A stretch of DNA of 25,539 bases from a virus, in the IMG/VR virus record IMGVR_UViG_3300034190_000391, positions 1 to 25,539 of that record; one strand, written 5' to 3'. Position numbers and translations under genes: made by a program. Shown one piece after another: positions 1 through 16,000 of the stretch. The notes beneath the pieces were generated by a model. That model worked only from the letters and a program-made list of their open reading frames with translations. It was not told the origin of the DNA and did not search any database. The stretch's first letter is position 1. Each line of letters starts with the position of its first letter.

Positions 1-376
1 TGATTTGTTTAAGAGAAATTGCACACTCTTTTCAAATAAGCATAAAGATGAACTGCCATCTAGCAATCTAACAAAAACTTTCGTGTTAGATTTGTTCGAG
101 ACATTGAACCTTAAATCTCAAGCTAAGATCATTGCTCACAATAAAGGCGAGGATGTTAAGACACCTTTGGATACAATCATAGATAAGTTGGTAGGTCTGA
201 AGACTAAGACCGGTAAGCAAAGGGATGGTCTTATCATGACACAATCTGAACTTGATGATTTTAAGGTTAGATTAATCAATAGGTTTGAGATTGCAGACAA
301 AGGCAGAAAGGCAATCGATGAGGCAGAGGAAGAGCAATCAGTAGTTGATGATGTTACTGAGGCTTTACTTGCTTAA
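1..376 (+). CDS. 3' end of a hypothetical phage gene (5' truncated)
   Basis: The reading frame is open from the first complete codon of the window and ends with TAA at 374-376, so this is the C-terminal part (about 124 residues) of a longer protein. The TTG at 5-7 has no visible ribosome binding site and should not be taken as the start. The fragment is charged and mostly helical in character, with a Lys-rich middle (LKTKTGKQRDG) and an acidic end (DEAEEEQ). I do not recognise a family. A terminator-like hairpin follows 15 bases after the stop, so this gene probably ends a transcription unit. No function can be assigned. Confidence 0.75.
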   Translation, partial: DLFKRNCTLFSNKHKDELPSSNLTKTFVLDLFETLNLKSQAKIIAHNKGEDVKTPLDTIIDKLVGLKTKTGKQRDGLIMTQSELDDFKVRLINRFEIADKGRKAIDEAEEEQSVVDDVTEALLA

Positions 377-391
377 TCTAATACACAAATT

Positions 392-427
392 GACACAGAT
401 CTATATGGTCTGTGTCTGCTTGTTTAT
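392..427 (+). terminator. Intrinsic terminator-like hairpin
   Basis: GACACAGATC (392-401) pairs with GGTCTGTGTC (407-416), giving a 10-bp stem with one G-U pair and a TATAT loop. A T-rich stretch (TGCTTGTTTATT) follows. It lies 15 bases past the stop of the upstream gene and 65 bases before the next start, a normal place for a Rho-independent terminator. The U-tract is interrupted, so termination may be partial. Confidence 0.6.
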
Positions 428-434
428 TGGAAAT

Positions 435-442
435 ACTATCAT
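435..442 (+). promoter_or_regulatory. ACTATCAT motif, intergenic copy 1
   Basis: ACTATCAT lies between the hairpin at 392-416 and the gene starting at 481. The same octamer occurs in the gaps at 3513-3520 and 13019-13026, and a 7-base version (CTATCAT) lies in the gap near 5427. Position after a hairpin and before a gene suggests a promoter or activator element, but no clear -35 box accompanies it. Function is inferred. Confidence 0.3.
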
Positions 443-480
443 CCATATAAGCAGAAACCTAAACAACCAAAGGAGACTAT

Positions 481-777
481 ATGTCACAAGAAAAAAAACT
501 AATAGAACGTACATCTAAATTAGTAGATCAGTACAACAAAGTAAAAGATCTAAGATGGGAACTGCATCAAAATAGTTCTCTGCTATTAGAGGCAAATTTA
601 AAGCATGAGCAAGCTGAAAAAAAGTTTGATCAAGCTATCGAGAAATTTATGCTTGTACACCTAGAAGATTATACTAATGACCAAGTAATTAAAAAGGTCA
701 TTCAATATCTTGGTGCAGAGCATGAAGAACAAGCTAAGAAAATACTAAATAAATTTAAACAACAAGTGGAGTTATAA
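481..777 (+). CDS. Hypothetical coiled-coil protein, 98 aa
   Basis: The ATG at 481 has a good ribosome binding site (AAAGGAGA) about 5 bases upstream. The product is very rich in Lys, Glu, Gln and Leu, and most of its length fits long amphipathic helices of coiled-coil type (for example EANLKHEQAEKKFDQAIEKF). There are no cysteines, no signal peptide and no membrane segment. The stop overlaps the start of the next gene (TAATGA), so the two are probably translationally coupled. It is the first gene of a plus-strand run leading to the AAA+ ATPase. I do not recognise a family; the function is unknown. Confidence 0.8.
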   Translation: MSQEKKLIERTSKLVDQYNKVKDLRWELHQNSSLLLEANLKHEQAEKKFDQAIEKFMLVHLEDYTNDQVIKKVIQYLGAEHEEQAKKILNKFKQQVEL

Positions 778-1049
778 TGAGTAAACATAATCAAATAGTT
801 GACCACTTTAAAGGTCGCATCGTTAGTGGAATATTCACAAAACTTGATGGAACAAAAAGAAAGTTTTGGGGAGTTCTTAAACACGAGGATCGAGATCTTG
901 GGAAAGATCTTGTTACTGTCTATGATTTCAGAATAAAGGAATATCGTAGATTTAGATTGGACAATGGCACTTTAAGATTAAAAAGTGGCAATGTCTTTTA
1001 TAAATATAACCATGCAAATGGTATAACTTTCAAAACAAGGAGTGCATAA
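777..1049 (+). CDS. Small basic protein, possible SH3-like barrel fold
   Basis: The ATG overlaps the stop of the previous gene (TAATGA), which suggests translational coupling. The 90-residue product is basic and mainly beta in character, with a core reading LDGTKRKFWGVL, then LVTVYDF and YRRFRLDNGTLRL. That layout (DGT-R, a hydrophobic strand, VYD, then R-F) resembles the small SH3-barrel-like proteins often annotated in marine phages. This is an impression from pattern and not a search result. The gene sits two bases upstream of the AAA+ ATPase and is probably in the same operon. Function unknown. Confidence 0.8.
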   Translation: MSKHNQIVDHFKGRIVSGIFTKLDGTKRKFWGVLKHEDRDLGKDLVTVYDFRIKEYRRFRLDNGTLRLKSGNVFYKYNHANGITFKTRSA

Positions 1050-1051
1050 TA

Positions 1052-2125
1052 ATGCGTATTACAGACATAAGAAATGCTATTCAAGGCATGATGATCCATA
1101 ACTTTAAAACTGTTAAAGGTGGTCGTAAAGATCAGCTTGTTATCCCTTATGTTGAGGGTGGTGTTGGTCAAGGTAAAACTACTGTGGTCAATTCATTAAC
1201 TACTGACGAACTTATCCTTAAACATTGTAGAGAAATATTTGACTACAAGGAAGATAAGCTAGGCTTTATTAACTTTGGTTTACCACAGTTTGATCCATCA
1301 GAAATTGCCGGTTGGCTTGTGCCATCCAAAGATGGGGAAAGCATGAACAGATTAAGACCTAATTTTATGCCTACTGAGGGATGTGGAATTATCTTTGTTG
1401 ATGAGGTTGCCCAAGCTACATTAATGGCTCACAACATCTTTGGTCAGCTAGTCGATGAACGTAGATTAGGAGATCATTATCTACCGGATGGATGGATGAT
1501 TGTTGGAGCCGGAAATAGGCTGTCAGATCGTGCCGGATCTAATAAGCTACCATCACAGCTTAGAGATAGATTTACATATCTTAGCCTAGAAATTAACCTA
1601 GATGATCTACTGCATTACTATGCATCTAACAATGTGGATCACAGATTAAGTTCATGGCTAAAGTTTGATGATCAGCATCTTTATAACTTTGATGTGTCAG
1701 CTAATAGCAACTGTACACCTAGATCAGTTGAAAGAGCCGGTGTTCTTTTAGGTCTAGGTTTTGACAGCACTACTTTAAGAGGTGTTCTTGAGGGGCAAAT
1801 TGGAGAGACAGCATCTGCTAGTTTGATTGCTCATATAAAGCTACATGACAAACTGCCGGACTTTGACAAGATTGTTAATGATCCGGATGGTACAGAAATA
1901 CCGGAAGATCGTGGTGTTCTTTATGCCTTATGTGGTTCATTAGCTTTCAAGATGAACATGACCAACTGTGCAAGTATTCTTAAATACATTCAGAGAATAC
2001 CGGAGCAAGAGTTCATGGCTTTCATGCTTAAAGATGCTGTAACAAGAAACAAAACTCTTGTCACCAACCAAGCTATGAAACAAGTTCTAGGATCTAAAGG
2101 TAATCTTAAAGATCTATTACTTTAA
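1052..2125 (+). CDS. MoxR-type AAA+ ATPase
   Basis: A 357-residue protein with one AAA+ module. Seen directly: Walker A GGVGQGKT at residues 36-43, Walker B IIFVDE at 113-118, a sensor-1-like GAGN at 152-155, and an arginine-finger-like LRDRF at 170-174. The order and spacing fit the MoxR/RavA/CobS branch, whose members form ATP-driven rings and typically work with a VWA-domain partner encoded next door. Such a partner follows here (2206-3417). The start at 1052 has AAGGAG about 10 bases upstream. In known family pairs the ATPase remodels or activates a protein or metal-enzyme target; the phage target is unknown. The family call is strong and the role is inferred. A 16-bp hairpin follows the stop. 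Confidence 0.9.
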   Translation: MRITDIRNAIQGMMIHNFKTVKGGRKDQLVIPYVEGGVGQGKTTVVNSLTTDELILKHCREIFDYKEDKLGFINFGLPQFDPSEIAGWLVPSKDGESMNRLRPNFMPTEGCGIIFVDEVAQATLMAHNIFGQLVDERRLGDHYLPDGWMIVGAGNRLSDRAGSNKLPSQLRDRFTYLSLEINLDDLLHYYASNNVDHRLSSWLKFDDQHLYNFDVSANSNCTPRSVERAGVLLGLGFDSTTLRGVLEGQIGETASASLIAHIKLHDKLPDFDKIVNDPDGTEIPEDRGVLYALCGSLAFKMNMTNCASILKYIQRIPEQEFMAFMLKDAVTRNKTLVTNQAMKQVLGSKGNLKDLLL

Positions 2126-2133
2126 ACTTATAC

Positions 2134-2170
2134 TCTAGGATAAGGTGCAGTATTTGTGCTTTATCCTAGA
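2134..2170 (+). terminator. Long intergenic hairpin between ATPase and VWA genes
   Basis: TCTAGGATAA (2134-2143) pairs perfectly with TTATCCTAGA (2161-2170). Pairing continues inward with G-U pairs to a GTATT loop at 2150-2154, giving about 16 base pairs. It is followed by CAAAAAC and not directly by a T-run; a T-run comes only after the 21-bp repeat at 2173-2193. It may attenuate transcription, stabilise the upstream mRNA or set the ratio of ATPase to VWA protein. Confidence 0.5.
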
Positions 2171-2172
2171 CA

Positions 2173-2193
2173 AAAACTTTACGTAAACTTTTT
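2173..2193. repeat. 21-bp palindrome-centred repeat, copy 1
   Basis: The first of three identical 21-bp intergenic sequences built around the perfect palindrome TTTACGTAAA, with AAAAC before and CTTTTT after it. This copy sits between the hairpin at 2134-2170 and the VWA gene, immediately before that gene's ribosome binding site. The preceding bases CTAGAC are also shared with copy 3. It may be an operator or part of a terminator. Confidence 0.8.
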
Positions 2194-2205
2194 TTGGAGA
2201 CTTTA

Positions 2206-3417
2206 ATGCAAAATTTAAAATTAGAAGACAAGTTCTCAAAGGTTAGAATTCAATTACTATGGGATAAAGATGACAAAGGTCATGCCTTTTATGGGATCGT
2301 TCTTGTTAAGATGAAGATCATAGAAAAGAATGAGATCCCCACCTTTGCAACTGATGGCAAAGATATTTTCTTTAATAGAGAATATGCTGACAGCTTATCC
2401 TTTGAGCAGTTAAAAGGTGTTATTGTACACGAGGTAAAACATCGTGGACTAAAACATCATATCAGACAGCAACAAAGGGATGCTGAGATTTGGAATATAG
2501 CTTGTGATCTTTCTATCAATCCAATAATAAAAAACTCCGGTTTAACTTTGCCGGATGGTGGTTTGTTTGATCCTCAGTTTATAGGTTGGAGTAGTGAAAA
2601 GATTTACAATACCATTGCCCCACAGATCCAAGCTAAGAAAAAACAGCAACAGCAACAAGGTCAAAATGGAGATGGACAGCCATCAAATGATGGAGATCCT
2701 ACTTGGTTACAGCCTCAATCATGGGGCAATATCGAGGGCAATGTTACTGATGGCATGTCTCCGGCTGAACTAAAAGCTGAAGAGGCTGACGTAAATGAAG
2801 AGATCTTCCAAGCTGTAAGACAAGCTAAAGAAAGAGGCACTATTCCGGCAGAGGTCAAACAAATGGTCGAGGTCATGAAAAGAGCAGAGATTAATTGGCA
2901 AGACATTGTTGAAAGACATGTCGAGGGCGATAATCCTCACGACTTTTCATATAGGAAGATGCACAGAAAGTTTTACTACAGCCATAACATAGTTGCCCCT
3001 ACCATAGAAAACTATGGTGTTGGTCACATTGTTGTTGGAGTGGATAGTTCCGGATCTGTATCAGATAAAGAATTACAGTATTTTCTAGGTGGTTTAAATG
3101 CTTTGTCATTAGAACTTAAACCTAAGTCTGTAACTGTGATCACTTGCGACAGCAAAGTACAAAACGTCTACAAGCATGAGCAAGGAGATGAGATTACCAA
3201 GATCAGATGTAATGGGCGAGGTGGCACATGTGTCATGCCGGTGTTTGATTACATAAAAGAAAATGATCTAGAGGTAGACAGTTTTATTTATTTTACTGAC
3301 ATGGGGATCTTCGACTTTCCAAAAGAAGAAATGCCTTATCCGGTATTATGGGTAAGCACAGACCTAAATGCTGACAAAGCACCTATTGGTCAAACAACGT
3401 ATCTAAAAGTGGCTTAA
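2206..3417 (+). CDS. Zincin-type metallopeptidase-like / VWA domain protein (DUF2201-like)
   Basis: The frame is open from a TTG at 2194, but ATG 2206 has GGAG at the right distance, so the product is taken as 403 residues. The N-terminal half carries HEVKH at 75-79 (an HExxH zinc-binding motif) followed by DAEIWNIACDLSIN near 92-105, the pattern of the DUF2201 N-terminal metallopeptidase-like domain. A Gln-rich linker (around residues 145-160) leads to a VWA-like domain with the MIDAS motif DSSGS at 280-284. In bacteria this architecture is usually encoded beside a MoxR-type ATPase, as here. The natural inference is a two-component machine in which the ATPase ring drives or loads the VWA protein. 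Whether the zinc site is catalytic cannot be judged from sequence. Confidence 0.88.
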   Translation: MQNLKLEDKFSKVRIQLLWDKDDKGHAFYGIVLVKMKIIEKNEIPTFATDGKDIFFNREYADSLSFEQLKGVIVHEVKHRGLKHHIRQQQRDAEIWNIACDLSINPIIKNSGLTLPDGGLFDPQFIGWSSEKIYNTIAPQIQAKKKQQQQQGQNGDGQPSNDGDPTWLQPQSWGNIEGNVTDGMSPAELKAEEADVNEEIFQAVRQAKERGTIPAEVKQMVEVMKRAEINWQDIVERHVEGDNPHDFSYRKMHRKFYYSHNIVAPTIENYGVGHIVVGVDSSGSVSDKELQYFLGGLNALSLELKPKSVTVITCDSKVQNVYKHEQGDEITKIRCNGRGGTCVMPVFDYIKENDLEVDSFIYFTDMGIFDFPKEEMPYPVLWVSTDLNADKAPIGQTTYLKVA

Positions 3418-3443
3418 TGCTACTTTTGGATAAAAACAAGGCT

Positions 3444-3496
3444 CTAGGATCGTCACACAGAGGCGAAACAATATGTCTGTGTGTGATTGTACCTAG
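3444..3496 (+). other. Structured intergenic region
   Basis: CACACAGA (3454-3461) pairs with TCTGTGTG (3476-3483) around a 14-base loop, and CTAGG (3444-3448) pairs with CCTAG (3492-3496) outside it. It resembles the ACAGA/TCTGT hairpins at 392-416 and 5508-5539. It follows the VWA gene and precedes the ACTATCAT motif and the gene at 3538. No U-tract follows, so it is more likely an RNA processing or regulatory structure than a classic terminator. Confidence 0.4.
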
Positions 3497-3512
3497 TAAT
3501 TTCAATCAAACT

Positions 3513-3520
3513 ACTATCAT
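3513..3520 (+). promoter_or_regulatory. ACTATCAT motif, intergenic copy 2
   Basis: This copy extends to ACTACTATCAT, an 11-mer shared exactly with the copy at 13016-13026. It lies 18 bases upstream of the ATG at 3538, with the AAGGAG ribosome binding site between them. That spacing is tight for a bacterial promoter -10 element but possible for a short leader. Confidence 0.3.
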
Positions 3521-3537
3521 TGAATAAGGAGACAATA

Positions 3538-4518
3538 ATGATATTTTTAAAAAAAGGATCAAGTCCTAACAAACAATCTGATCAATTTGTAGATCATAAA
3601 GTATTAGAAAGTTATTTAAACTTTTTAGCTGTTGGCTATAAATCATTTGGCTTAACAGAAATGCAAAAGGTCAAATTATTATCCAAAAAATCTATAGCTA
3701 GTATGTCTCAAGAAGAAAAAGAAGATTTGAGAATTTTTACTAGTCACAGAAAGCATTATGTAAATCATGGTTTAGACAGCATTTATAATTGTGGATCAGC
3801 TATTAGAGAATTACGAAAAGAACGTAAATTTAAGAGTGCCATTTATTCTAATAAATATGATGGTAAAAAAGTATTCAGAAAAGAAAGGGAATACTCTCAA
3901 GGTTTCTTTAATGGTCAGACTATTAATTCAAAGTATTCTTACATAACTAAAATGTTTGCCCAAAAATGGTGGGATGAGCATCAATCTAGAACAAATGTAA
4001 AAATACAATGTAATGCATTGGCTAGAGAAATAACTGTAGTTCCATCTGAGATTAAGAGATCTGCAAGTTATTCATATTATAATTGTCATAATGATATAAA
4101 CATTTCGCCATCTTGGTTTAGGAATGTTTACATGAAAGGTTTGGCTACAACTACTTACAAAAGCAAAACAGCTTTTGTTGCTAATGCAAAACCTTTTCCA
4201 ATAGATAGAATTAAATCTAGTGGCTTAGATGTTTATAAGATTGATCTTATTACTTGTCATGATGGAGTTATAAATTTAGAGAAAGATCTTTGGTATTTGG
4301 TTTATGAAAGCAAACCTTTCGAGATCCAAGAGGTTCACAACGATTGGGGGGGCAATGTTCCTAATCGTGGTAATGACAGCGACAGAGAAAATTTTAAAAA
4401 CAATTTAATCTACAATCCGGCTGTGACTATCAACTGTGCCTCTGACAATTTTAGACGAGCAGAAAACGTCATGAATGGCAGAGTTCAGAAAAACTTACTT
4501 AATGCTATGGGAGTTTAA
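3538..4518 (+). CDS. Hypothetical protein, 326 aa
   Basis: The frame extends upstream to 3487, but ATG 3538 is preceded by AAGGAGAC at good spacing and is chosen as the start. The product is basic, rich in Lys, Asn, Tyr and Ser, with no signal peptide or obvious membrane segment. Notable stretches are KERKFKSAIYSNKYDG near residue 100, QKWWDEHQSRTN near 145, an aromatic run SYSYYNCHND near 180, and a C-terminal FRRAENVMNGRVQKNLLNAM. I see no nucleotide-binding or nuclease motif. It sits downstream of the ATPase/VWA pair and upstream of small unknown genes. I do not recognise the family. Confidence 0.85.
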   Translation: MIFLKKGSSPNKQSDQFVDHKVLESYLNFLAVGYKSFGLTEMQKVKLLSKKSIASMSQEEKEDLRIFTSHRKHYVNHGLDSIYNCGSAIRELRKERKFKSAIYSNKYDGKKVFRKEREYSQGFFNGQTINSKYSYITKMFAQKWWDEHQSRTNVKIQCNALAREITVVPSEIKRSASYSYYNCHNDINISPSWFRNVYMKGLATTTYKSKTAFVANAKPFPIDRIKSSGLDVYKIDLITCHDGVINLEKDLWYLVYESKPFEIQEVHNDWGGNVPNRGNDSDRENFKNNLIYNPAVTINCASDNFRRAENVMNGRVQKNLLNAMGV

Positions 4519-4519
4519 T

Positions 4520-4747
4520 ATGCTGAATGAAAACTTTAATGTTGAGAAAATGTTTGGTCTAGATGCTTACGAGAACAAATATGGAGTTACACCTCAAGAG
4601 CAAACTGACGAAATATTATTTCATCAATTAGATGAGGTAGGTGCATTTATAAATAGAAATGCACCTAACATTTCTGACACTAACTACTTAATATTTTTTA
4701 AAATATTCCAAGAACTTAATGAAAGGGAGAAATTTAATGGAAAATAA
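4520..4747 (+). CDS. Hypothetical acidic protein, 75 aa
   Basis: The ATG at 4520 lies two bases after the previous stop and is preceded by GGGAG, so the longer in-frame start inside the upstream gene is rejected. The product begins MLNENFNVEKMFGLDAYENK and is acidic, with helical segments and no cysteines. Its last 11 bases overlap the start of the next gene. No family recognised. The tight packing suggests it is co-transcribed with the genes on either side. Confidence 0.75.
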   Translation: MLNENFNVEKMFGLDAYENKYGVTPQEQTDEILFHQLDEVGAFINRNAPNISDTNYLIFFKIFQELNEREKFNGK

Positions 4748-5069
4748 TGAAATAATAAAAGCTAAAAAAATAGCTAAACTACAAGGACAACTTAAAGCAT
4801 TAAGAAAGATCGAATTAGAAATAAATAAAAATATAGTTGATGTTTTTAATGAACTTGAAAAATATGGACAAGAGATGCATCCGGAAAACTTTCCGGAGAC
4901 ATTAGTAACACAAAAAATTAAGGTATGGCTAAGAGGAGAAATATCTGATGTTCATTCAAATCCAAATGATGATGATGTGGACAGCAGAGAACTAGGTATT
5001 CTTGATGGCAGATACGAATGTGCTAGAGCCTTAATTACTCAAATAAAAAAATGGGAGAATGAAATATGA
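4737..5069 (+). CDS. Hypothetical coiled-coil protein, 110 aa
   Basis: ATG 4737 is preceded by AAGGGAGA, which decides the start over an in-frame ATG 18 bases earlier. The N-terminal half is a Lys/Glu/Leu-rich helix (residues 1-45, KKIAKLQGQLKALRKIELEI) of coiled-coil type. The rest includes an acidic loop NPNDDDVDSRE and a C-terminal helix. The stop overlaps the next small start as ATGA. No known domain recognised. Confidence 0.75.
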   Translation: MENNEIIKAKKIAKLQGQLKALRKIELEINKNIVDVFNELEKYGQEMHPENFPETLVTQKIKVWLRGEISDVHSNPNDDDVDSRELGILDGRYECARALITQIKKWENEI

Positions 5070-5119
5070 TTGTAGAATGGTGGGAATTACCTTTTGATTG
5101 GGAGAATGATTATGAGTAG
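5066..5119 (+). CDS. Possible 17-residue leader peptide gene
   Basis: A very short frame, ATG 5066 to TAG 5117-5119, encodes MIVEWWELPFDWENDYE. It overlaps the previous stop by ATGA and its own stop overlaps the start of the following membrane-protein gene (ATGAGTAG). A GGGAGA ribosome binding site lies about 8 bases before its ATG. Its double coupling and filling of an otherwise empty gap suggest it is translated. The peptide is acidic and Trp-rich. Function unknown; it could simply carry ribosomes to the next start. Confidence 0.45.
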   Translation: MIVEWWELPFDWENDYE

Positions 5120-5309
5120 AATTGATGCCTTTTTATTATTTCTTTTAGGAGTAGCTGTTATATTTATGGCTATTGTTACATTGGCAGATCCTAATGGATA
5201 TTACATGCAAACTGTAGGAAGAATTTTGTTTACTCTAGGAATAGGATCTATAGGATTAACTATGATCTTGATTGGAGTTGCAAAAATGATTTTTAACAGA
5301 ACAGAATAG
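5112..5309 (+). CDS. Small membrane protein, two predicted transmembrane helices
   Basis: ATG 5112 (MSRIDAF) is chosen because GGGAGA lies about 8 bases upstream; earlier in-frame starts are too close to it or have none. The 65-residue product has two hydrophobic helices, about residues 6-26 (AFLLFLLGVAVIFMAIVTL) and 38-58 (ILFTLGIGSIGLTMILIGVA), joined by a short loop with DPNGYY. Size and topology fit a small phage inner-membrane protein such as a holin-like protein, but there is no endolysin beside it, so that is only a guess. Its TAG stop abuts the possible structured RNA at 5309. Confidence 0.7.
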   Translation: MSRIDAFLLFLLGVAVIFMAIVTLADPNGYYMQTVGRILFTLGIGSIGLTMILIGVAKMIFNRTE

Positions 5310-5409: not shown

Positions 5410-5493
5410 AATAATAATTGAAACAGCTATCATGGGCAAAACTTAAATCTCTTTTAAATTATGGTAGGTTAATGTATGGAAAGCCACATAAAA

Positions 5494-5842: not shown

Positions 5843-6337
5843 TCAACTATTTCCCCAAAATTTATAAAACTTTTCTATATTTTTACTAATAAAATCAAAA
5901 TTTCCGGATAACTCTATCCAATTAATTTCCCATTTCGTGAAATCTTTATCGTGCATAATTTTTATTAAAATTTCATATGCTGTTTTATTACCAGTACGTT
6001 TAACGTAATTCAAACAACTCACAACTTTTGATCTTAAAACAGCTTGTCTATCCCCATTTTGATCGTATGTAGCTGTAATTCTAGGATTGTAGTTTGTGGC
6101 TTTTACACCAATCATACCGGCTTTGTTAAACTCAGAGAAAAGAACATCAACAGATTTATATTGGTCTAACGATATACTATCATTCATGAGTAGCCGGTCT
6201 AAACATGTTTGGTCTACAACTCTAACTCTAACCTTGTTGGTGTTGCCTATAAACTCTGCTTTAAGAGTATTCCCACCACCAGAGGGTTCTAGGTCATAGT
6301 CTTTTTTTTTAGTTTTTTTAAAACTTGATTTCGTCAT
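5843..6337 (-). CDS. Hypothetical protein, possible DUF6456-like
   Basis: 164 residues; its start overlaps the end of the primase-helicase gene by 20 bases, so it is co-transcribed. The N-terminus is very basic (KKTKKKD). The middle reads VVDQTCLDRLLMNDSISLDQYKSVDVLFSEF and the C-terminal part TAYEILIKIMHDKDF then FISKNIEKFYKFW. This pattern, a helical start with IS..QY followed by a C-terminal helical bundle ending in an aromatic-rich helix, recalls DUF6456, a domain of alphaproteobacterial DNA-binding regulators. I hold that match weakly. The basic tail would suit a nucleic-acid-binding role. A strong terminator follows the stop. Confidence 0.85.
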   Translation of the reverse strand: MTKSSFKKTKKKDYDLEPSGGGNTLKAEFIGNTNKVRVRVVDQTCLDRLLMNDSISLDQYKSVDVLFSEFNKAGMIGVKATNYNPRITATYDQNGDRQAVLRSKVVSCLNYVKRTGNKTAYEILIKIMHDKDFTKWEINWIELSGNFDFISKNIEKFYKFWGNS

Positions 6338-8135
6338 ACTCTTCTTTTTCGTGCCAACTTTTGACTACTTTTTTTGGTTTAAACATGTCTAATGGAGATG
6401 ACAAATTTTCGTACCTAGATGTAAGTTTGTCAAACTCTAACTCGCACTCTCCAATAGATCCTACCCATGAGAACCTACATTTCCAAACTAATATCTGACT
6501 AACATTTGATCCACTAGCATTAGGTCTGTGAACTGTAAGACCTACATCAGATTTACTAAAGAAACTAGCTGATCCGGCAATGTCATAACCTTTTGGTGGT
6601 GGTACTGTTCCATCTTCTTTTCTAAACATTTTTTGAGGATGGGCAACAAACCAAATATGTATGCCATGTGCTTGAGCAAATACTCTTAGCTTTGTAAGCA
6701 TGTCAGAAATCCAATCTGTCTCGTTTGAAGACATATCTTTTGCTATGTAATTATAAGGATCTATAACACAGCCTCTTATCCCGTATCTATAAACAGCAGT
6801 CTTCATTCTTTCCAAGATGCTATCTAACGTAGATAGCGATCCATCAGCTTGATATAAAAAACAAAAGTTTTCTGAAACAAACTTCTTGCCTTTTTCTAAT
6901 TCAAGATTACTCATCCTTTCTGAACTACCCTCAAAGAATGGCTTTCCAATATATTTACTTATTAGCTTTGCAATGTGTATTCGTGGCTCGTTCTCAAATG
7001 AACATATACCAAATTTCCAACCTTTAGCTTTTGATATGTTCAGCATTATTTGATCAACAAATTCAGATTTACCGGATGATGGATGACCGGTTACTATTGT
7101 TAACTGCCCCTCTACAACTGTGTATAATGGATCTACAGCTTTATATCCGGTGCTTACCCCACTACCAATACCATCTTTGTAAATATCATCCACTTGATCA
7201 TAAAAATGTTCTGCATCGTAAAGACCGGAAACCGGATAAGGAATAGGATTATCTACTATTTCTTTTAATTTATCTTTTCCATGCCTCATTAGAATTTCAT
7301 TGGCATCTTTGCAGTCATTAGGATAAATAAATTTATAACATTTATCTTTCCCCACTCTTCTAGCTATCTCTTCTTCCATAGCTTGACCGGCTAAATCGTT
7401 GTCCATAGCCACAATAATTCTTTTGCATTTATCTAATTTTTCTTTTGAGTTCCAAATAAATTTAAATTTATTGTCCTCGTGTGGATCTATTTTGCCATCA
7501 ACAACTTTCATAACAGCACCATGAGGTATGGAAACTGCATTATTAAATCCTATCTCCATAAAAGAAAGACAATCCATCTCTCCCTCGCAAATTATGATAT
7601 CCTCAGAGTTTTCTATGTTGTCAATATTATAAAATTTTAATGCCTTGCCATAACTAGAAAAGCCTTTCTCCGGAAATGATCTGACCTTTGCAAAAGGAAA
7701 CAATCCCTTTTCATTTTTGTATGGGAAAACCAAACAAGGTAATTCTTTTTGTGCTGTGCTTATATATTTTTTTGTGAACTTTACTCCGGCTTTTTCTGCT
7801 GTCTGTTTAGAAATGCCTCTACTTTCCAAATATTGCAAACTGCCATTTTCCTCTGCAAGAACATCCCATTTTTCTGTTTCGTAACTAGACAAAGGATTTG
7901 ACTGTTCTTGCATGATATCCCCCTTTACAATCTTTAATCTGCTATCATTAAATTTGATGCCTCCATCTTCTCCACAATGCCAACAATTATAAAATATTGC
8001 ATCAGAATCAACCTTTAAAGACAATGTTTTTTGATTTTTTTTCTTCCTAGTGTGGGAGCAGAAAGGGCAATTCGCCTTGTGCTGACCACTACCAAGTCTC
8101 AAGGCTACATCCTTGATCGAGTGTTTAATTTCCAT
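6318..8135 (-). CDS. T7-gp4-type DNA primase-helicase
   Basis: 605 residues with the layout of a phage primase-helicase. Seen: a zinc ribbon C23-x2-C26 and C51-x2-C54 for template recognition; a TOPRIM primase domain with EGEMD at 184-188 and AMDND at 243-247; and a RecA/DnaB-like helicase domain with Walker A GHPSSGKS at 350-357, Walker B CVIDP around 456-460, and a later FVAHPQK motif. The frame continues upstream to a TTG at 8156, but AAGGAG lies just before ATG 8135, which fixes the start. It unwinds the replication fork and makes primers. The gene lies downstream of the AT-only tandem repeats and is followed, with overlap, by a small unknown gene. Confidence 0.95.
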   Translation of the reverse strand: MEIKHSIKDVALRLGSGQHKANCPFCSHTRKKKNQKTLSLKVDSDAIFYNCWHCGEDGGIKFNDSRLKIVKGDIMQEQSNPLSSYETEKWDVLAEENGSLQYLESRGISKQTAEKAGVKFTKKYISTAQKELPCLVFPYKNEKGLFPFAKVRSFPEKGFSSYGKALKFYNIDNIENSEDIIICEGEMDCLSFMEIGFNNAVSIPHGAVMKVVDGKIDPHEDNKFKFIWNSKEKLDKCKRIIVAMDNDLAGQAMEEEIARRVGKDKCYKFIYPNDCKDANEILMRHGKDKLKEIVDNPIPYPVSGLYDAEHFYDQVDDIYKDGIGSGVSTGYKAVDPLYTVVEGQLTIVTGHPSSGKSEFVDQIMLNISKAKGWKFGICSFENEPRIHIAKLISKYIGKPFFEGSSERMSNLELEKGKKFVSENFCFLYQADGSLSTLDSILERMKTAVYRYGIRGCVIDPYNYIAKDMSSNETDWISDMLTKLRVFAQAHGIHIWFVAHPQKMFRKEDGTVPPPKGYDIAGSASFFSKSDVGLTVHRPNASGSNVSQILVWKCRFSWVGSIGECELEFDKLTSRYENLSSPLDMFKPKKVVKSWHEKEEYDEIKF

Positions 8136-8220
8136 AATTTTCTCCTTACTACACAATTACTAATTATTCCAAAAATAATTATTCGTCAATAAGAAATGAA
8201 ATTTACATTTATAATTTTAT

Positions 8221-8298: not shown

Positions 8299-8625
8299 TT
8301 ACATGCTCAAAGATCTAGCTTGAATAACTTTCTTTAATCTCTCCCCTAAATATCTAGCTACTAAAGGCTTACTAGTTAATATTTCTTTTATTTTAACAGA
8401 TAAGTTTTCTGAATTTAATGTTGCTAAATCACAAACAGCAACAAAATCTTCAGTTAAAATCCACTTGCCAACTGATAATTTTTCTTTGTCAGTACCAAGA
8501 TATGAATCAGAAATCGCTTGGCAAATCACATGTTTCCAAAGGCGAGACTCTGATGTGAGTTCGTGGTGTGTCTCTGTCCAACCCCCAATAAATGATTTTT
8601 CTTTTGACTTGTCTGTCATTAACAT
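8299..8625 (-). CDS. Hypothetical protein, 108 aa, overlapping rusA
   Basis: ATG 8625 has AAGGA 7 bases upstream, inside the RusA gene, and the two genes overlap by 119 bases in different frames. The well-structured part begins at about residue 28: SRLWKHVICQAISD, then KWILTEDFVAVCDLA. This RLW...QAI.D / W....DF..VC.lA pattern recalls a small conserved family in phages of alphaproteobacteria whose function is not known to me. The first 30 residues may be a by-product of the overlap, but I see no later ATG. The AT-only repeats begin just after its stop. Confidence 0.7.
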   Translation of the reverse strand: MLMTDKSKEKSFIGGWTETHHELTSESRLWKHVICQAISDSYLGTDKEKLSVGKWILTEDFVAVCDLATLNSENLSVKIKEILTSKPLVARYLGERLKKVIQARSLSM

Positions 8626-8899
8626 AAACTTTTCCTTGCATACAATCCAAGATCACACTCTCGTCAAGATCCGGTCTTCTAGATGCATAGTATATAATTA
8701 ACTCTACTTTTACGTCATTTTCAATAAGATTTTCTAAAGTGGGGCATTGTTTTGCAAAATCTTTCTCATAATCTCTCGCTTTTTGAGATTTTATAACACC
8801 CATTCTTTTGCCAAAATTAACTATTTTTCTAGAGTTTGCCTTAGATGCCGGTTCTCCATAAATAATAAATTTAAAACTTTCTTTTATTTCTGTTGACAT
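8507..8899 (-). CDS. rusA: RusA-family Holliday junction resolvase
   Basis: 130 residues, the usual RusA size. RusA is a dimeric Mg-dependent endonuclease that cuts four-way junctions, in phages to resolve recombination and replication intermediates before packaging. Seen: N-terminal FIIYGEPASKANSRK; then the acidic signature PDLDESVILDCMQG with D77 and D79; then VYVNDRQV with D95. These match the three catalytic aspartates of E. coli RusA (D70, D72, D91) in order and approximate spacing. It is the first gene of the minus-strand replication operon, with its start 48 bases from the divergent Cas4-like gene. The last 119 bases are shared with the next gene. Confidence 0.92.
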   Translation of the reverse strand: MSTEIKESFKFIIYGEPASKANSRKIVNFGKRMGVIKSQKARDYEKDFAKQCPTLENLIENDVKVELIIYYASRRPDLDESVILDCMQGKVYVNDRQVKRKIIYWGLDRDTPRTHIRVSPLETCDLPSDF

Positions 8900-8947: not shown

Positions 8948-9853
8948 ATGAAGATTACCAATAATTTTGGTATGCCACAACCATTTGTGGACTTTGCCAT
9001 AAACGACAAATACAGTAAAGGCAAAGCTGATATATCGATAACATCATTAATTGATAGTCCTAGAGTTAGGATTATGAAAAATGTTTATGACAATGACATT
9101 GAAGTTGATGCTGTTGATATGGTTTGGGCATTATTTGGTACTGCTGTACATTCAGTTTTGGAACAATCAAATTCATCCAAGAACATCATAAATGAAGAGA
9201 GATTATATGCTAGTCATAATGGTTGGATTATATCCGGTGCATTAGATAGGCAAGAAATTAAAAATAACACAGCATCCATCATAGATTATAAAGTTACATC
9301 TGTTTGGTCTGTTATCTATGGTAAGCCGGAGTGGGAAAAACAACTTAATTGTTACAGTTGGCTTTTTAAAAAAAATAATACTCATAACCAAATAAAGGTA
9401 GGATCTTTAAAAATATGTGCAATATTAAGAGATTGGAACAGAAGAGATGCTGAGAGAAAAGAAAATTATCCACAAGCACCTATAGTCTTTGTGGACATTC
9501 CTATTTGGGATGATAATTCCATTGATAAATATATCTCTGACAGAGTTTCCTTACATCAAGAGGCTCAAGTTAATTATGATTTAAATGCAGACTTGCCTTT
9601 ATGCTCTGATCAAGAAATGTGGAAAAAGAATGATACTTGGGCAGTAAAGAAAAAAGGTCAAAAGAGAGCATTGAGAGTTTTAGATAGTGAAGAAGAAGCT
9701 ATTAAATACGTAGAATGGCATGACAAAACCGACCAAGCCTACATAAAAAAATCAGATTTAGAAACAGAACATCGAAGTGGAGAGTACACTCGTTGTGGCA
9801 ACTATTGTTCAGTTGCTGAATTTTGTAATCAATATAAAGAGAGGATAAAATGA
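8948..9853 (+). CDS. Cas4/RecB-like PD-(D/E)XK exonuclease
   Basis: 301 residues. Seen in RecB-nuclease order: a conserved histidine in GTAVHSVLE (H68), then SGALDRQEI with D100, then IIDYKVTS with D113 and K115 (D-x-K instead of E-x-K), and the Q132-x3-Y136 motif in QLNCYSWL. Three cysteines near the C-terminus (C283, C287, C293) resemble the iron-sulphur end of Cas4, but the fourth, N-terminal cysteine is not present, so a cluster is uncertain. Phage members probably resect DNA ends for recombination by the annealing protein encoded downstream (10480). There are no CRISPR genes nearby. It is the first gene of the plus-strand block. Confidence 0.85.
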   Translation: MKITNNFGMPQPFVDFAINDKYSKGKADISITSLIDSPRVRIMKNVYDNDIEVDAVDMVWALFGTAVHSVLEQSNSSKNIINEERLYASHNGWIISGALDRQEIKNNTASIIDYKVTSVWSVIYGKPEWEKQLNCYSWLFKKNNTHNQIKVGSLKICAILRDWNRRDAERKENYPQAPIVFVDIPIWDDNSIDKYISDRVSLHQEAQVNYDLNADLPLCSDQEMWKKNDTWAVKKKGQKRALRVLDSEEEAIKYVEWHDKTDQAYIKKSDLETEHRSGEYTRCGNYCSVAEFCNQYKERIK

Positions 9854-10490: not shown

Positions 10491-11187
10491 AGTGCCGGAT
10501 AAGGTTAAGGAAACCTTAAAAGAAATTGGAATGACAGCACAACAAGCCGGTTGGAATTGTCATGGAACTTATGTACTTTTACATAAAGCATTGGAAAAGG
10601 TCGCTGTTCACAAAAAAATTACATTTAAAGAACCAACTGTTTTGGAGAGTAATTCTGAAAAGAAGATTGTCAGTTTACTTGTTACCGGCAGTATGGGAGA
10701 TAGTTCAGAATGGTCTATAGGAGAGGCATCTCCATCAAATAACAAAAACAGTTATCCATATGCTATGGCTGAAAAAAGAGCCAAAGATCGTGTGATATTA
10801 AAGTTAGTTGGTCTTCATGGAGATGTCTATGCAGAAGATGAGGCTGATGCTTTTAAAGAAGAAAGACCGGATGAAATTAAAGGTGGCACTATAGATAATG
10901 GATCTGAGAAAACAAAAGAAGATCCACCTAAAGAGACTATGGAAATAAAAGAGGTTAAATCCGGCAAAGTAGAAAATGTTAATTTAAAAGAAGATGTTGC
11001 TAACATAAAGCAAGTGTTCTTAACATTTATGCCGGAAGACAGCATTGAGGAACTGCGTAGATTTAAAAATTCTAATGCAGAGGCTCTAAAGACGTTGAAA
11101 GAACTAGATGCTATGGCATTTGGGGAAGTATCAACAGCCTTTATTGCAAGGGCAGACAAAATCAAATCCAAACAACAAGGAGAATAA
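10480..11187 (+). CDS. Probable Rad52/ERF-like single-strand annealing protein
   Basis: 235 residues. The N-terminal 120 residues look like a folded domain ending in SYPYAMAEKRAKDRVILKL (91-109) and VYAEDEAD. An alanine, then K-R-A and a hydrophobic helix is the hallmark of ERF and Rad52-type phage annealing proteins, in which this segment lies near the end of the DNA-binding core. The rest (130-180) is a Lys/Glu-rich linker, followed by a helical C-terminal domain. Such proteins coat ssDNA and pair complementary strands. An exonuclease upstream and an SSB-like gene directly after it support the call. Family assignment is by motif only; the exact branch is uncertain. Confidence 0.65.
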   Translation: MKDEVPDKVKETLKEIGMTAQQAGWNCHGTYVLLHKALEKVAVHKKITFKEPTVLESNSEKKIVSLLVTGSMGDSSEWSIGEASPSNNKNSYPYAMAEKRAKDRVILKLVGLHGDVYAEDEADAFKEERPDEIKGGTIDNGSEKTKEDPPKETMEIKEVKSGKVENVNLKEDVANIKQVFLTFMPEDSIEELRRFKNSNAEALKTLKELDAMAFGEVSTAFIARADKIKSKQQGE

Positions 11188-11188
11188 A

Positions 11189-11509
11189 ATGGAAAATGAT
11201 TACCCACCAAGTGGCACTCTATTTGAGGCTAAAGTTAGAAAAACAGATAGGTCTCCGGATTATACCGGTCAATTAGAATTACCACCGGAAGTAGTGGAAG
11301 ACCTATCAAAGCAAATTAAAAATGGAAATCAAAAACCTAAATTAAGTTTAATAGGTTGGAAAAAGATAAGTGGTAAAAGTGGAAAGCCATTTTTAAGTTT
11401 AAGGGGAAATATTTTTGAGATTTACAATCCTAATGATCAAAATCAATCTTCTCAAAACAAGCCAAGCACATCAAGCGATCACGATGCATTAGCTGATATA
11501 ACATTCTAA
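11189..11509 (+). CDS. Probable phage single-stranded DNA-binding protein
   Basis: ATG 11189 is preceded by AAGGAGAA and lies one base after the upstream stop, so the longer in-frame start at 11108 is rejected. The product is 106 residues: a compact N-terminal domain with TGQLELP and KPFLSLRGNIFE (beta-strand-like), a Gln/Ser/Asn-rich disordered linker, and the tail DHDALADITF. A small beta domain, a disordered linker and an acidic tail ending in hydrophobic-x-F is the layout of bacterial and T7-type SSBs, whose tip recruits partner proteins. Its position next to the annealing protein fits. The OB fold itself is not obvious by eye. Confidence 0.6.
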   Translation: MENDYPPSGTLFEAKVRKTDRSPDYTGQLELPPEVVEDLSKQIKNGNQKPKLSLIGWKKISGKSGKPFLSLRGNIFEIYNPNDQNQSSQNKPSTSSDHDALADITF

Positions 11510-11520
11510 GGGAGATTTAA

Positions 11521-11763
11521 ATGGAAGAAGTTAAAGCAAATACAGATAATCTAGGTGTTCCTAGTGTAAATTTCGAGGCTGTCAAAACATCTATGATGCA
11601 AGATAAAAATGGAACAAATATTAGGCTGACAATACATCCTAATGATGTGCCACCACAGTTGCATAAAGATTGGGTTGGATCTAGATACATGGTTGTTATG
11701 GTAAAATTAAATGAAGATGGCACTCCGGAAAAAGGGGATATCAATGTCACGAATGAAGTTTAA
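11521..11763 (+). CDS. Hypothetical protein, 80 aa
   Basis: ATG 11521 is preceded by AAGGGAGA. The product is a small acidic protein with a beta-rich core: TNIRLTIHPNDVPPQLHKDWVG and RYMVVMVKLNEDGTP. The IHP.D.P..L..D..G.RY pattern is reminiscent of small proteins found beside phage recombination genes, but I cannot name a family. The gene's 3' end overlaps the start of the HTH gene by 20 bases. Confidence 0.75.
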   Translation: MEEVKANTDNLGVPSVNFEAVKTSMMQDKNGTNIRLTIHPNDVPPQLHKDWVGSRYMVVMVKLNEDGTPEKGDINVTNEV

Positions 11764-11983
11764 TGATGATGCTGTAGAAAATAACGAGTATGTAACTATT
11801 GAGGGATTGTCTAAGATGCTTAATGTATCAAGACAATCTATAGTTAAAGTAATAAACGATACGGAACGTAATTTCCCAAAACCTTTCCCTTTAATGAAAT
11901 CTGAAAAACGAGAAAAGAATATTTGGAGTAAAAAGGAAATTAAAGAATGGCTTGAGGAACAACGAAACCAAAAAGTTACGTAA
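11744..11983 (+). CDS. AlpA/MerR-like small HTH protein
   Basis: ATG 11744 follows AAAGGGGA at good distance; an earlier in-frame ATG at 11711 lies deep in the upstream gene and is rejected. The 79-residue product has the AlpA/excisionase layout: YVTIEGLSKMLNVSRQSIVKVI (helix-turn-helix, residues 16-37), then FPKPFPL (wing), then W61 and IKEWLEEQ in a terminal helix. Such proteins bind DNA as small regulators or recombination directionality factors. No integrase is seen in the window, so a transcriptional role is more likely. A TTACGTAAA sequence related to the intergenic 21-bp repeat lies at the 3' end of this gene. Confidence 0.75.
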   Translation: MSRMKFNDDAVENNEYVTIEGLSKMLNVSRQSIVKVINDTERNFPKPFPLMKSEKREKNIWSKKEIKEWLEEQRNQKVT

Positions 11984-11987
11984 AGTT

Positions 11988-12446
11988 ATGACTAGGGCAA
12001 AGTACGAGACGCTAGAAAACCTCACAGAAGAAAAAAATATATTAGGATACATCTCACAAAAGTGGGATGTATCTTGTTCTAAGATGCCAATATCATACAA
12101 ATTAGATTATGCCATGTACAGAAATGAAGAGTTAGTAGGCTTTGCTGAAGTTAAGTCTCGCACTCATGCCTTCAGGACATTTGACACATACATAATTTCT
12201 TTATCAAAAGTAATGTCAGCTAGAAGATTAGCATCTGTCACTAGCACTAAATCATTGCTGATTGTAAATTGGAGTAACTTAATAGGTTGGATTGATTTTT
12301 TCTCTGACTTCTCTGTTCGACAGGGTGGTAGGTCAGATAGAAATGATTGGCAAGATCAAGAGCCAATGTGTCATTTTGATATTAATGATTTTAAACTAAT
12401 TTCGGACTCTGTTTTACCGGCAGCCGAAATAAAGGAGAGAGAATAA
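11988..12446 (+). CDS. PD-(D/E)XK nuclease-like protein, 152 aa
   Basis: The ATG at 11988 is chosen over a TTG at 11952 inside the upstream gene, although its ribosome binding site is weak; the short gap suggests coupling. Seen: LDYAMYRNEELVGFAEVKSR with D40, E54 and K56, the D-x(n)-E-x-K active-site pattern of the PD-(D/E)XK superfamily, preceded by a helix containing K8-type basic residues. A later hydrophobic strand (SLLIVNW) also fits the fold. Possible roles are a recombination or packaging nuclease or a structure-specific endonuclease. It is the second nuclease of this fold in the operon, and very different from the 8948 gene. Confidence 0.75.
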   Translation: MTRAKYETLENLTEEKNILGYISQKWDVSCSKMPISYKLDYAMYRNEELVGFAEVKSRTHAFRTFDTYIISLSKVMSARRLASVTSTKSLLIVNWSNLIGWIDFFSDFSVRQGGRSDRNDWQDQEPMCHFDINDFKLISDSVLPAAEIKERE

Positions 12447-12697
12447 TGAAATTATACGATGAATACAAAGAAGCATTTATAGGCACTACTATAAGTGCTT
12501 TCAGTAGAAATCAAGTGGCATTATATGACTATGATAAATGCATAATGATACTGATGCATGACAATAAATGGAGTGAGGAAGAGGCTGTGGAGTGGTTTGA
12601 TTTTAATACCATAGGTGCATGGGTTGGCGATGACACTCCAATATTCATCAATCAACATAAGATTAGCGATATAGAGGAGTATCTAGATGAAGAATGA
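12446..12697 (+). CDS. Conserved-looking phage hypothetical protein, 83 aa
   Basis: The start overlaps the previous stop (TAATG). The product is acidic, with ALYDYDKCIMILMHDNKWSEEEAVEWFDFNTIGAWVG. The pattern W..EEA.E.f.fN..gawvG..tP.f resembles small proteins common in marine phage replication modules, but I know no function. It overlaps the DUF3310 gene by 11 bases. Confidence 0.78.
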   Translation: MKLYDEYKEAFIGTTISAFSRNQVALYDYDKCIMILMHDNKWSEEEAVEWFDFNTIGAWVGDDTPIFINQHKISDIEEYLDEE

Positions 12698-12905
12698 CAA
12701 TGTAAACAGACCTAATCATTATAGAAAAGGTAAGGTTGAATGTATCGATGCTATCAAGTCTGCTACGGGAGTAGGTTATGAGTATTATTTGCAAGGAAAT
12801 ATTCTCAAGTATGTTTGGAGGCATAAACATAAAAATGGATTAGAAGATCTTTTAAAAGCAGAATGGTATCTCAAAGAACTAATAAAAGTAAAAAAGAAAA
12901 AGTAA
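12687..12905 (+). CDS. DUF3310 family protein
   Basis: 72 residues spanning the DUF3310 motif set: NRPNHYRKGKVECIDAI at the N-terminus, then GNILKYVWRHKHKNGLEDLLKAEWYLKEL. DUF3310 proteins are widespread in phages; the T7 relative gp1.7 has been linked to nucleotide kinase activity, but that role should not be assumed for this shorter protein. It is the last gene of the plus-strand operon and is followed 33 bases later by the 34-bp palindrome. Confidence 0.88.
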   Translation: MKNDNVNRPNHYRKGKVECIDAIKSATGVGYEYYLQGNILKYVWRHKHKNGLEDLLKAEWYLKELIKVKKKK

Positions 12906-12938
12906 AGCTGTATTTGATGCCACCGGGGTCTGATTCGA

Positions 12939-12972
12939 CTAGACTAAAACTTTACGTAAACTTTTTGTCTAG
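12939..12972. terminator. 34-bp near-perfect palindrome, likely bidirectional terminator
   Basis: The sequence from CTAGAC to GTCTAG reads as its own reverse complement except at two symmetric position pairs. It contains repeat copy 3 at its centre. It lies between two convergent genes (stops at 12905 plus and 13043 minus), where one symmetric hairpin could stop transcription from both sides. It has T-runs within the arms but no free U-tract after the stem, so other roles (operator, recombination site) remain possible. Confidence 0.55.
12946..12966. repeat. 21-bp palindrome-centred repeat, copy 3
   Basis: Identical to 2173-2193 and 5717-5737. This copy is embedded in a larger palindrome. The preceding CTAGAC is also present before copy 1. 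Confidence 0.8.
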
Positions 12973-13018
12973 CATAGATTAATAACACCACTCAAATCAA
13001 TAACGTAGCTGTAGGCAC

Positions 13019-13026
13019 TACTATCA
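13019..13026 (+). promoter_or_regulatory. ACTATCAT motif, intergenic copy 3
   Basis: This copy lies in the convergent gap, 47 bases past the 34-bp palindrome, with the 11-mer ACTACTATCAT shared with 3510-3520. No plus-strand gene follows, which weakens the idea that the motif is simply a promoter, unless it drives antisense transcription into the giant gene. Confidence 0.3.
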
Positions 13027-13042
13027 TGCATCGTGTGCAGAT

Positions 13043-16000
13043 CTATCTTTCTTTAAGACCTACTTCCCTCATAAGCACTACCCCTTTTCTCATAAGCTCT
13101 TGGATCTTTTCAGTTCTAAGTCTTATGAGCTTTCTCCTAGTATCATCCGGTATTCTAAGGTTTCTTTCTAATTCTCTTATTTGCCTTAACATTCTATTCC
13201 TAGCATTGTCTATAGCTTTAAATCTTCCATATATCTTCAGTTCATCATCGTATCTAGCACGAAGTCTTCTTATATCTTCTATATCGCCTCTTCTGTTTGC
13301 CAAATCTAGTCTAGCAAATATAGTAAACAATCCTTTTCTATTTTCTAAATAAGTTTGTGTGTCTACTCTTTCAGACGGCTGGGCAATAACCTTACGTAAA
13401 AAAGGTATTCTTGATTCAATGTTACCATCAAAATCTCCTTTTATAACATCCGGTATAACTCCAAAAGCTAAGTTTCCAAATCTATTAACTGTAGCACCGG
13501 CTCCACCTATTGCGAACTCAATCCAATATTCAATAACATCCGGAGACCAATCAACTATTCCACTTTCAACTTCATCTCCACCGGTAAGACTGTTTAACTG
13601 ATCTACTATAAACTTAGGTATGGCTCCGGTATTGCCCCAGTACTGTTGACTGTCCGGTCTAGGCGAAGATGCGTACATAGGACTTTCTTTGTATATAGGA
13701 TCTCCTCTATAGTTTTTGTTTACAAATAATTCTATAAAAGGATCTAAAAATGTAGGTAAAGCGTATGTCTCCCAATTTTCTATAGCACCAAATGGACTTA
13801 ATGTTTCCATTGTTGTGTTGAATATAGAGCCACTTGCTTGACCAAATGTATACTCACCACGAGTGTAGCGACTTAATGACCTGCCTAAGTTAACAGCCAT
13901 ATTTAATCCATAAGCCAATGGTATCTTAATAAATTTCTTGTCTGACAATCCCATGCTTGGGAATATCAAATTATGCTCTAATGAGTAATCGTCTAGATCA
14001 TCATATTGCTTTATGCCATTATCATCTTCATCATCGCTAACCATTGCCATAAGTTGATCTTGAAGTAATCCATAAGCAACCATACCTAGCCATAGTTTTC
14101 TAACTCTAGGAGACCTTCTAGCCGCCATGAGCAGAGCCATACTTCCTTGTAATGAAGCATTGTAAAACAAATACAATGAATTCATTGCAACTTTGTCTTC
14201 TCCACCTTTTGCAAAGTTTACTGTTACATCTCTCGCTGCTTCAGCAGCCCGTGCATCAGAGAAACCTCTTTTTTTCAAAGCTGTGAACGTAGCGACACGA
14301 ACACCATTTTCAACTGCTGTGTTATAATCATCTAAAAACTGTAATAATTTTCTAAATCCTACCTTATGCAGTCCTTGATTTTGTGTTCCACCAATGTCAT
14401 TTAACAGCTTACCCATATTTTCCATCTGGTCTTGTACACTAGCCATCATATTTGTAGCGTTTTTTCCACCTGCTTTAACAAACTTCAAATACTCTTGTGA
14501 CCAAAAACTATCTGTATTTTCAGTTCTTAAAACATTTCTTATACCTAGTATAGCTTTGCCTGTTGATAACCCTATCTCTTTTGTAATACCCTCTAAATCA
14601 TATTGTTGGGCGTTAACAAGAGCAGTTTCCAAATCTTTTGCTAAGTTAGGTAACACGAAAGCTGGGTTATACGTTGTGTTAACATTTGAAAGCCATTTGT
14701 TTAATTTACCTAACATTCTAATAAATGTGCCATTAGTTTGTGGATCTGAATGTAATTTTAATGATCGGGCTATCGATGAACTGTAAATGTTTACGTAAAC
14801 TTCTTGTCCATTTTCTTTTACTGCAAATTGATTGGGATTCATTGGATCTTTAGTGGCAATGTATGCAATATTTTTAGACATATCTGATGCCAACTGATCG
14901 TTTATAGCGACAGTTCCATCTTGACTTTCGTTTTCACCTCTTATTAATTTTAAAAAAGATACACCTACTTTGTTTCTTTCACCTCTATCAATGGCCCTCT
15001 GGTTCTGTGCTATAGCAGATGCTAATATGTTCTCTGCATATTTAGTTCCTCTACCCTTTGCACTTCTATCCTCATTGCCCATAGCTCCAAATAGATTAAC
15101 TGTTTTTCTTTGTCTGTTTAATCTGTCGTCAGTAGCTTCATCAACTGCATCCATATCACCTCTAAGTGGGACATAATTTTTATACTCTACTCTTTTATCA
15201 TATGTTTCTTGTGTAATTAAACCTGACTCAAGCCTTTTAGCATTTGTGCTTTCTATTAAATTTTTTGTAAGATTAACTATATTATTAAATATAGTTTTAT
15301 TTTCTGCATTTAATCCATCAAACCATTGCAATATTGCTGTAGCTTCTGCATTAGACATACCTGAACCAAGTGGTCTTTTATGATCCTGTATAATCTTTTT
15401 ATTACGCTCTTTAGCGTGTCTAGCGTATAATAATACATCTGTTAATACTAAATTGTTATCCACACCAAGCTCTAAAGCAGTTTTTACAAAACCTTCTTGT
15501 CCTGTTTCTTGCGCAGCGGCTTGTGATAGAGAGGATAAATTATTTAATTGATCGTCAGTAATATTAATCTTTTTAACTTCTTCTAGTATTGGCTTTACTA
15601 TAGTTTCTTCTAAGTCAGTTAATTGTGCGCCTGTAGTTCCATGTGAGTTTTTTTCTTGTAAATACGTATCAGCAACATCAGATATGTTATATCCTTTGTC
15701 TCTAAGCGTATCCATCATATCGCCAATAGGTTGAAATGAATCTTGAAACTTTGTAACTATTCTATTTGCGGCATCTCTTCTAGTCTTTCCCATCATAGGA
15801 AAAGATTTGCCAAACTTATTTATTATACTTTGTGGAACTATTTTTAGTCCCTTTTCTATAATACCTGCTAAATTATTATACCTTATAGTTTGTTGAGATT
15901 CCTCTATATAAGCATCATTTTTTATAGCAGTTTGTTCTCTCTGTGTTGCTCCTGTTAGACTAGCCCTTATGGCTGATTTTCTAATCTCAGTTCCTCTGGG

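Follow-up and report, generated by a model that had tools for sequence, protein, structure and literature searches.

The stretch of viral DNA considered here, a 25,539-bp IMG/VR virus record (IMGVR_UViG_3300034190_000391, hereafter the window), contains part of a continuous block from which about a dozen short words have disappeared. These words are missing from that one segment and kept elsewhere in the genome, a pattern like that of phage T5. We examined this positional block together with the neighbouring DNA, and a block with the same edges recurs in related genomes, where the set of missing words changes from clade to clade. The block is probably the leading end of the linear virion DNA, representing the first 15-17 kb to enter the cell, in which restriction sites would have been purged by selection while protection for the remainder would be made or delivered early.

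Word loss in the window

An earlier note on this DNA, made by eye from the letters alone, had proposed that CCWG and CWGG are systematically replaced by CCGG over the first 13.7 kb, with about 60 CCGG and only about 8 CAGG, CTGG, CCAG and CCTG combined in positions 1-13,680 and none of the four in 1-5,400. Recounting on both strands gave 59 CCGG against 8 of the four words (CAGG/CCTG, 4; CCAG/CTGG, 4), and all four are at zero before about 5.5 kb. The reversal that it described is also present, with about 14 CCGG and about 115 CCAG/CTGG/CCTG/CAGG beyond 13,880; per 10 kb, CCGG falls from 43 to 12 across the boundary and CCWG/CWGG rises from 6 to 99. Counts were compared with a null model in which synonymous codons were shuffled inside each region (300 shuffles), preserving proteins and codon usage. 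In the first part they lie far outside this null (CCGG, 55 versus 10.8, z +17; CCAG, 4 versus 45.5, z -7.9; CAGG, 2 versus 40.9, z -8.6), and in the second part the corresponding z values are +2.7, -1.7 and -0.5. The G+C content is equal on either side of the boundary and the signal survives the codon shuffles, which rules out a mutational or codon-usage effect.

The proposed replacement of CCWG/CWGG by CCGG thus stands for the counts but is too narrow in scope, as many unrelated words are depleted too. Words also gone from the first part include CCCG, CCGC, GGCC, GCGC, GCWGC, GGWCC, CAGTG, GGTGA, GGGAC, GAAGG and others, and almost no CCAG, CCTG or CCCG, or their complements CTGG, CAGG and CGGG, occur there. 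CCGG is high because its alternatives, CCHG/CDGG, are forbidden; its excess appears to be forced, CCGG being the sole CCNG/CNGG member left where the proteins need CC-N-G or C-N-GG. The earlier note had further placed a sharp change near 13.65-13.88 kb within a giant gene. An edge does exist there, but the change-point fit within the window is best at 13,855-14,115 and across relatives the transition is a slope.

Three contigs run through this boundary: L001 (99.94% against the window over 5,099-17,500), L002 (99.89% over 1-15,718) and L003 (84-92%). L001 and L002 differ from the window at several bases and are therefore separate assemblies, and these near-identical contigs, together with L003, rule out the chimeric assembly that the earlier note had listed among its possible causes. 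In L002 the block continues leftward beyond the window for about 3.0 kb, as far as the gap between the terminase genes terS and terL (edge at L002:18735, corresponding to window position about -3,017), giving a total of about 17 kb. Relative to transcription, the two strands are depleted to the same degree, which suggests that double-stranded DNA is targeted; cleavage at the RNA level is ruled out by this symmetry and by edges that cut through genes.

The block in related genomes

Relatives were retrieved with the primase-helicase of the window and also with terminase proteins, and longer records were read piecewise. In the near-complete relative G001 (59.9 kb, with two ends that overlap by about 110 bp), the words GGCC, GCGC, CGCG and GCWGC add up to a single occurrence in 11,147-29,489, compared with 90 expected from the remaining genome, and the block with the full word set spans 11,450-28,492. 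A word-agnostic scan of this genome identified 38 strongly depleted 4/5-mers in a 13-kb span inside the block, against a genome median of 2. Where both edges are available the block measures 14.6-17.0 kb and the remainder of each genome is normal. Similarly, the block in 21 terminase-fetched loci contains no or almost no GGCC, GCGC, GCWGC, GGWCC, CAGTG, GAGTC, GGTGA or GAAGG, and all eight words are normal beyond terL. No comparable block was found in the related isolates DSL-LC04, HTVC023P, HTVC027P, 023Pt_psg01, Planktothrix Pag-Yong1 and Ruegeria 45A6 or in the G+C-rich relative G009.

The two edges differ in shape. Profiles were computed as observed/expected ratios, the expectation being the same proteins back-translated with the codon usage outside the block. 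The left edge falls between terS (phrog_51) and terL and is a step: pooled over 15 loci, the ratio drops from 1.03 (250-500 bp before the start of terL) through 0.45 (500-750 bp) to 0.00 (750-1000 bp). The right edge, by comparison, is a slope some 4 kb long that takes in roughly the last 2 kb of the giant gene and the first 2 kb or so past its stop codon. Here the ratio declines from 1.03 at 2-3 kb inside the gene to 0.84 at 1-2 kb and 0.35-0.42 in the last kilobase, and then from 0.37-0.52 in the first kilobase past the stop to 0.19 at 1-2 kb and 0.05 farther on. Among relatives this edge is fitted at positions up to about 1 kb on either side of the end of the giant gene. As terS, a late-strand gene, lies inside the block and terL outside, the edge follows DNA position and not early-gene function. 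The clade 1 loci L110-L121 keep one forbidden site at a similar position, within terS or adjoining it and some 1.0-1.5 kb upstream of terL (7 sites across 15 loci); this site may be functional.

The forbidden words switch between clades. In the 5-8 kb around the primase gene, most members of clade 1, to which the window belongs, have 17-28 CCGG, 1-5 CCWG and no CCGC. Clade 2 has no CCGG, CCGC, GGATG or CATCG and 43-69 CCWG, and clade 3 has no CCGG, 15-21 CCGC and 13-24 GGATG. The clade of the window therefore lacks CCWG, CCGC and CCCG and retains CCGG, and its sister clades lack CCGG instead. More distant relatives carry the block in the same position with yet other words: CCWG, GCWGC and GGATG in G007; CCGG, CCTAG and GGCCC in G008; GAGCT and GCWGC in G010; and GGCC, GGWCC and CCGG in L205, where counts upstream versus downstream of terL are 0 versus 15, 0 versus 11 and 1 versus 15, respectively. 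If our reading is correct, the almost complete swap of CCGG for CCWG between sister clades would be a record of a 16-kb segment being rewritten when enzymes change.

Several side observations concern these word sets. The clade 1 relatives L005 and L006 hold CCGG yet have 16-18 CCWG near the primase gene, as if the pressure on CCWG had relaxed or only begun. L205 (contig CAIRQE010000106.1, 62.8 kb; TerL 62%) is binned with an uncultured bacterium, a possible lead to a host; a host search in the genome collection gave one bin. In DSL-LC04 (OR003939.1), an 11.6-kb stretch that begins exactly upstream of terL (14,318-25,962) has no CCAGA, and a second stretch (49,906-56,388) has few or no CGGCC, GGCC and CCAGG.

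Correspondence with restriction sites

Most of the words that are lost coincide exactly with recognition sequences of known Type II enzymes, palindromic and non-palindromic alike. Under Markov as well as codon-shuffle null models, the recognition words are much scarcer than composition and codon usage would predict. Using the recognition sequences in Biopython's copy of REBASE, strongly depleted 5-mers inside the block were enriched for restriction sites in four clades (12/88 versus 6/386, p 6e-6; 13/73 versus 7/372, p 7e-7; 8/75 versus 6/369, p 6e-4; 5/43 versus 0/324, p 2e-5), where the Fisher p-values assume independence of words, an assumption that holds only approximately. Outside the block the enrichment is much weaker.

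One word behaves differently. CCWGG, the EcoRII/Dcm word, is absent from the whole genome, in and out of the block. Outside the block, 131, 59, 41 and 37 occurrences were expected for the four clades and 0 observed; the word is likewise missing from the whole window and from G001, G004, G007, G011 and other relatives. Loss therefore has two tiers, with one word lost everywhere and a dozen lost only in the block, and the disappearance of CCWGG is an internal sign of selection against restriction sites in this phage family.

Probable position of the genome end

Contig starts are in excess 200-1000 bp before terL (24 versus 12.6 expected, p 0.0006), with 3 on the downstream side. Several of them lie within or close to a C-rich noncoding element (ACCCCACCTACCCC...TTTTGCACAC) that is conserved just downstream of terS; this element is a candidate packaging or end site. 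Packaging by terminases usually begins at a site near terS and proceeds through terL into the structural genes; DNA upstream of terS, which is the block, would therefore be packaged last and ejected first. The step would mark a physical end, and the slope at the opposite edge would reflect fading exposure.

Interpretation and alternatives

Under the reading that we consider probable, the first-entering segment would meet host restriction enzymes unprotected, and sites in it would be removed by selection, mostly through synonymous changes. Early genes on the block, or proteins delivered with it such as the giant polyvalent protein, may protect the DNA that follows, where sites would then cost little. 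Exposure would be full for the first DNA and fall as protection builds, producing a step at the end and a fade inward, and the differences between clades would reflect hosts with different restriction systems. Candidates for the protection factor are the giant LPD38 protein, should it enter along with the DNA, and small genes at the tip, of which e4 is kept in all clades. Searches of Pfam and PDB with e4 gave no match, and its structure model (predicted local distance difference test score, 76.6) had no PDB match at E below 0.5. Avoidance of a target sequence, one of the causes raised in the earlier note, is supported, but the avoidance reaches well beyond a CCW/CWGG target and is restricted to a single block that the phage family shares. 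A broader proposition, that DNA delivery in this family is staged, with about 16 kb entering as the first segment, and that word loss from this segment is a readable imprint of the entry end, the approximate amount that enters before protection sets in and the restriction specificities of the hosts of each clade, has in our judgement an even chance of being correct.

Other explanations were weighed against this one. All of the DNA could enter together and be open to cutting anywhere, with only cuts in the early operon being fatal, since that operon would have to be expressed before restriction is turned off and late DNA that is cut could be repaired or replicated afterwards. The block would then mark early-gene function, and it is true that the block carries essentially all early and replication genes; it also includes terS, ends in a noncoding gap between two late genes and reaches into the 3' part of the late giant gene, and we regard this as unlikely, though it is the strongest of the competitors. 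Selection against the words may instead come from another defence that reads sequence, such as motif choice by clustered regularly interspaced short palindromic repeats (CRISPR) systems, modification-dependent nucleases or Argonaute, or from an unidentified nuclease. CCHG/CDGG fits no common Type II enzyme, and related modification-dependent specificities such as CCDG do exist in the REBASE list, but the exact match of most lost words to Type II sites makes such an agent improbable. A staged entry that begins at the giant gene, with the terS-terL gap as the end of the first segment, would also give a block bounded on both sides. Even so, a step at the gap and a slope at the giant gene are the reverse of what this predicts, contig ends cluster at the gap, and the usual direction of packaging makes the block the last-packaged end, so we give this order slightly less credence still.

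Mutational bias, biased mismatch repair toward CCGG, recombination between lineages and chimeric assembly, several of which were among the causes first suggested, would explain why composition changes within a single open reading frame. Taken together they are scarcely credible. Near-identical contigs cross the boundary, the G+C content is unchanged, and sister clades have zero CCGG in the block, where many unrelated words have also vanished and beyond which the genome is untouched; recent recombination is very unlikely given relatives at about 30-60% protein identity that share both edges with different word sets.

Several points weigh against the block as an entry end cleared of restriction sites. 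The family is known from sequence alone, without a host, an isolate or mapped termini, and its loci are related by descent and are not independent tests. Contig ends cluster upstream of terL but not at one base, and a fixed block length cannot be told apart from an edge locked to the giant gene. With respect to the agent, loss of CCHG/CDGG with CCGG spared matches no single common enzyme, and about a dozen 4-5-bp specificities would constitute a large restriction repertoire. The earlier note had pointed to a methyltransferase as something to look for in the rest of the genome; among the scanned G001 proteins, no DNA methyltransferase was found by Pfam and no known anti-restriction family was recognised. 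If the reading holds, an early protection factor is predicted in genomes where neither a methyltransferase nor an anti-restriction gene can be recognised. For uncultured viruses, k-mer maps of metagenomic phage genomes would then show the order of DNA entry, which parts are protected and which are not, and a fingerprint of the restriction systems of the host.

Genes and features

Features of the window and of the conserved element in relatives are collected in the table. In the variable tip region of G006 (L101), an open reading frame at 25,858-27,063 has a SprT-like metalloprotease motif, HEVSHHVQF, recognised by eye.

Table. Features of the window (window coordinates unless a locus is named)
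Feature	Position	Strand	Basis and remarks
Restriction-site-free block, portion in window	1..13860		Counts, change-point fit
Inner block edge, forbidden words return gradually in giant gene 3' end	13043..15050		In window mainly from 13,855-14,115 on
Giant gene, 3,072 amino acids, LPD38 (polyvalent protein) and DUF7178 domains	13043..22261	-	Open reading frame, Pfam; late strand; block edge in last kilobase
e4, truncated 3' part; tip gene present in all clades	2..376	+	tblastn, alignment
AAA+-like ATPase, Walker A GxGQGKTT, DEVAQ	1052..2125	+	Sequence; Pfam without match
DUF2201 metallopeptidase/VWA-like protein	2194..3417	+	Pfam
Primase-helicase, Toprim and DnaB_C	6318..8156	-	Pfam; query for relatives
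RusA-type resolvase	8507..8899	-	Pfam
PD-(D/E)XK nuclease	8948..9853	+	Pfam
PDDEXK_14 phage nuclease	11952..12446	+	Pfam
DUF3310 protein, final early gene ahead of giant gene	12687..12905	+	Pfam
Conserved C-rich element	L081:11310-11947 (G001 terS-terL gap); L110, L113, L121, L128, L150, L166, L169		Just downstream of terS; candidate packaging or end site

Comparison with known systems

The closest isolates by TerL (52-56% identity) are the HTVC023P-type pelagiphages and related podophages of 57-65 kb, which are similar in genome size; HTVC023P, HTVC027P, 023Pt_psg01 and DSL-LC04 have no multi-word block upstream of terL. Genome-wide loss of recognition sites as a counter-defence in prokaryotic viruses was described by Rusinov et al. 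2018 (PMC6286503), and the behaviour of CCWGG in the present family is alike. Most of the words considered here differ in being lost only in one block, and early genes, pre-early regions and T5 did not come up in a text search of that paper. A second parallel is provided by the leading regions of conjugative plasmids, as anti-defence functions cluster in the DNA that enters first (PMC11541004, PMC11602122); the passages on these regions note anti-defence genes and do not describe block-confined loss of sites.

Genome-wide avoidance and a T5-like, site-free, first-entering segment are therefore already known. A block-confined purge that switches between clades, clearing about a dozen short words from 15-17 kb with a step at one edge and a slope at the other, was not found in the open-access literature searched.

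A close likeness is to T5, in which the early-gene segment of first-step transfer is free of restriction sites that occur in the rest of the genome, as is the block in this phage family. The steps of T5 entry have been shown by experiment, and the order of entry proposed here comes from sequence. The T5 genome contains 6 EcoRI sites, of which the first lies at 30,220; the 10,219-bp repeat that is annotated as first-step-transfer DNA is free of them, an absence that is statistically weak alone (6 sites in the genome; a 6-bp word, 10 kb). The absence of pre-early EcoRI sites in a T5 relative was named in a 2026 paper as the reason for weak restriction (PMC13250531). The scale differs as well: one or a few 6-bp sites are concerned in T5, compared with about a dozen 4-5-bp words lost over 15-17 kb in this family, in a set that switches between clades.

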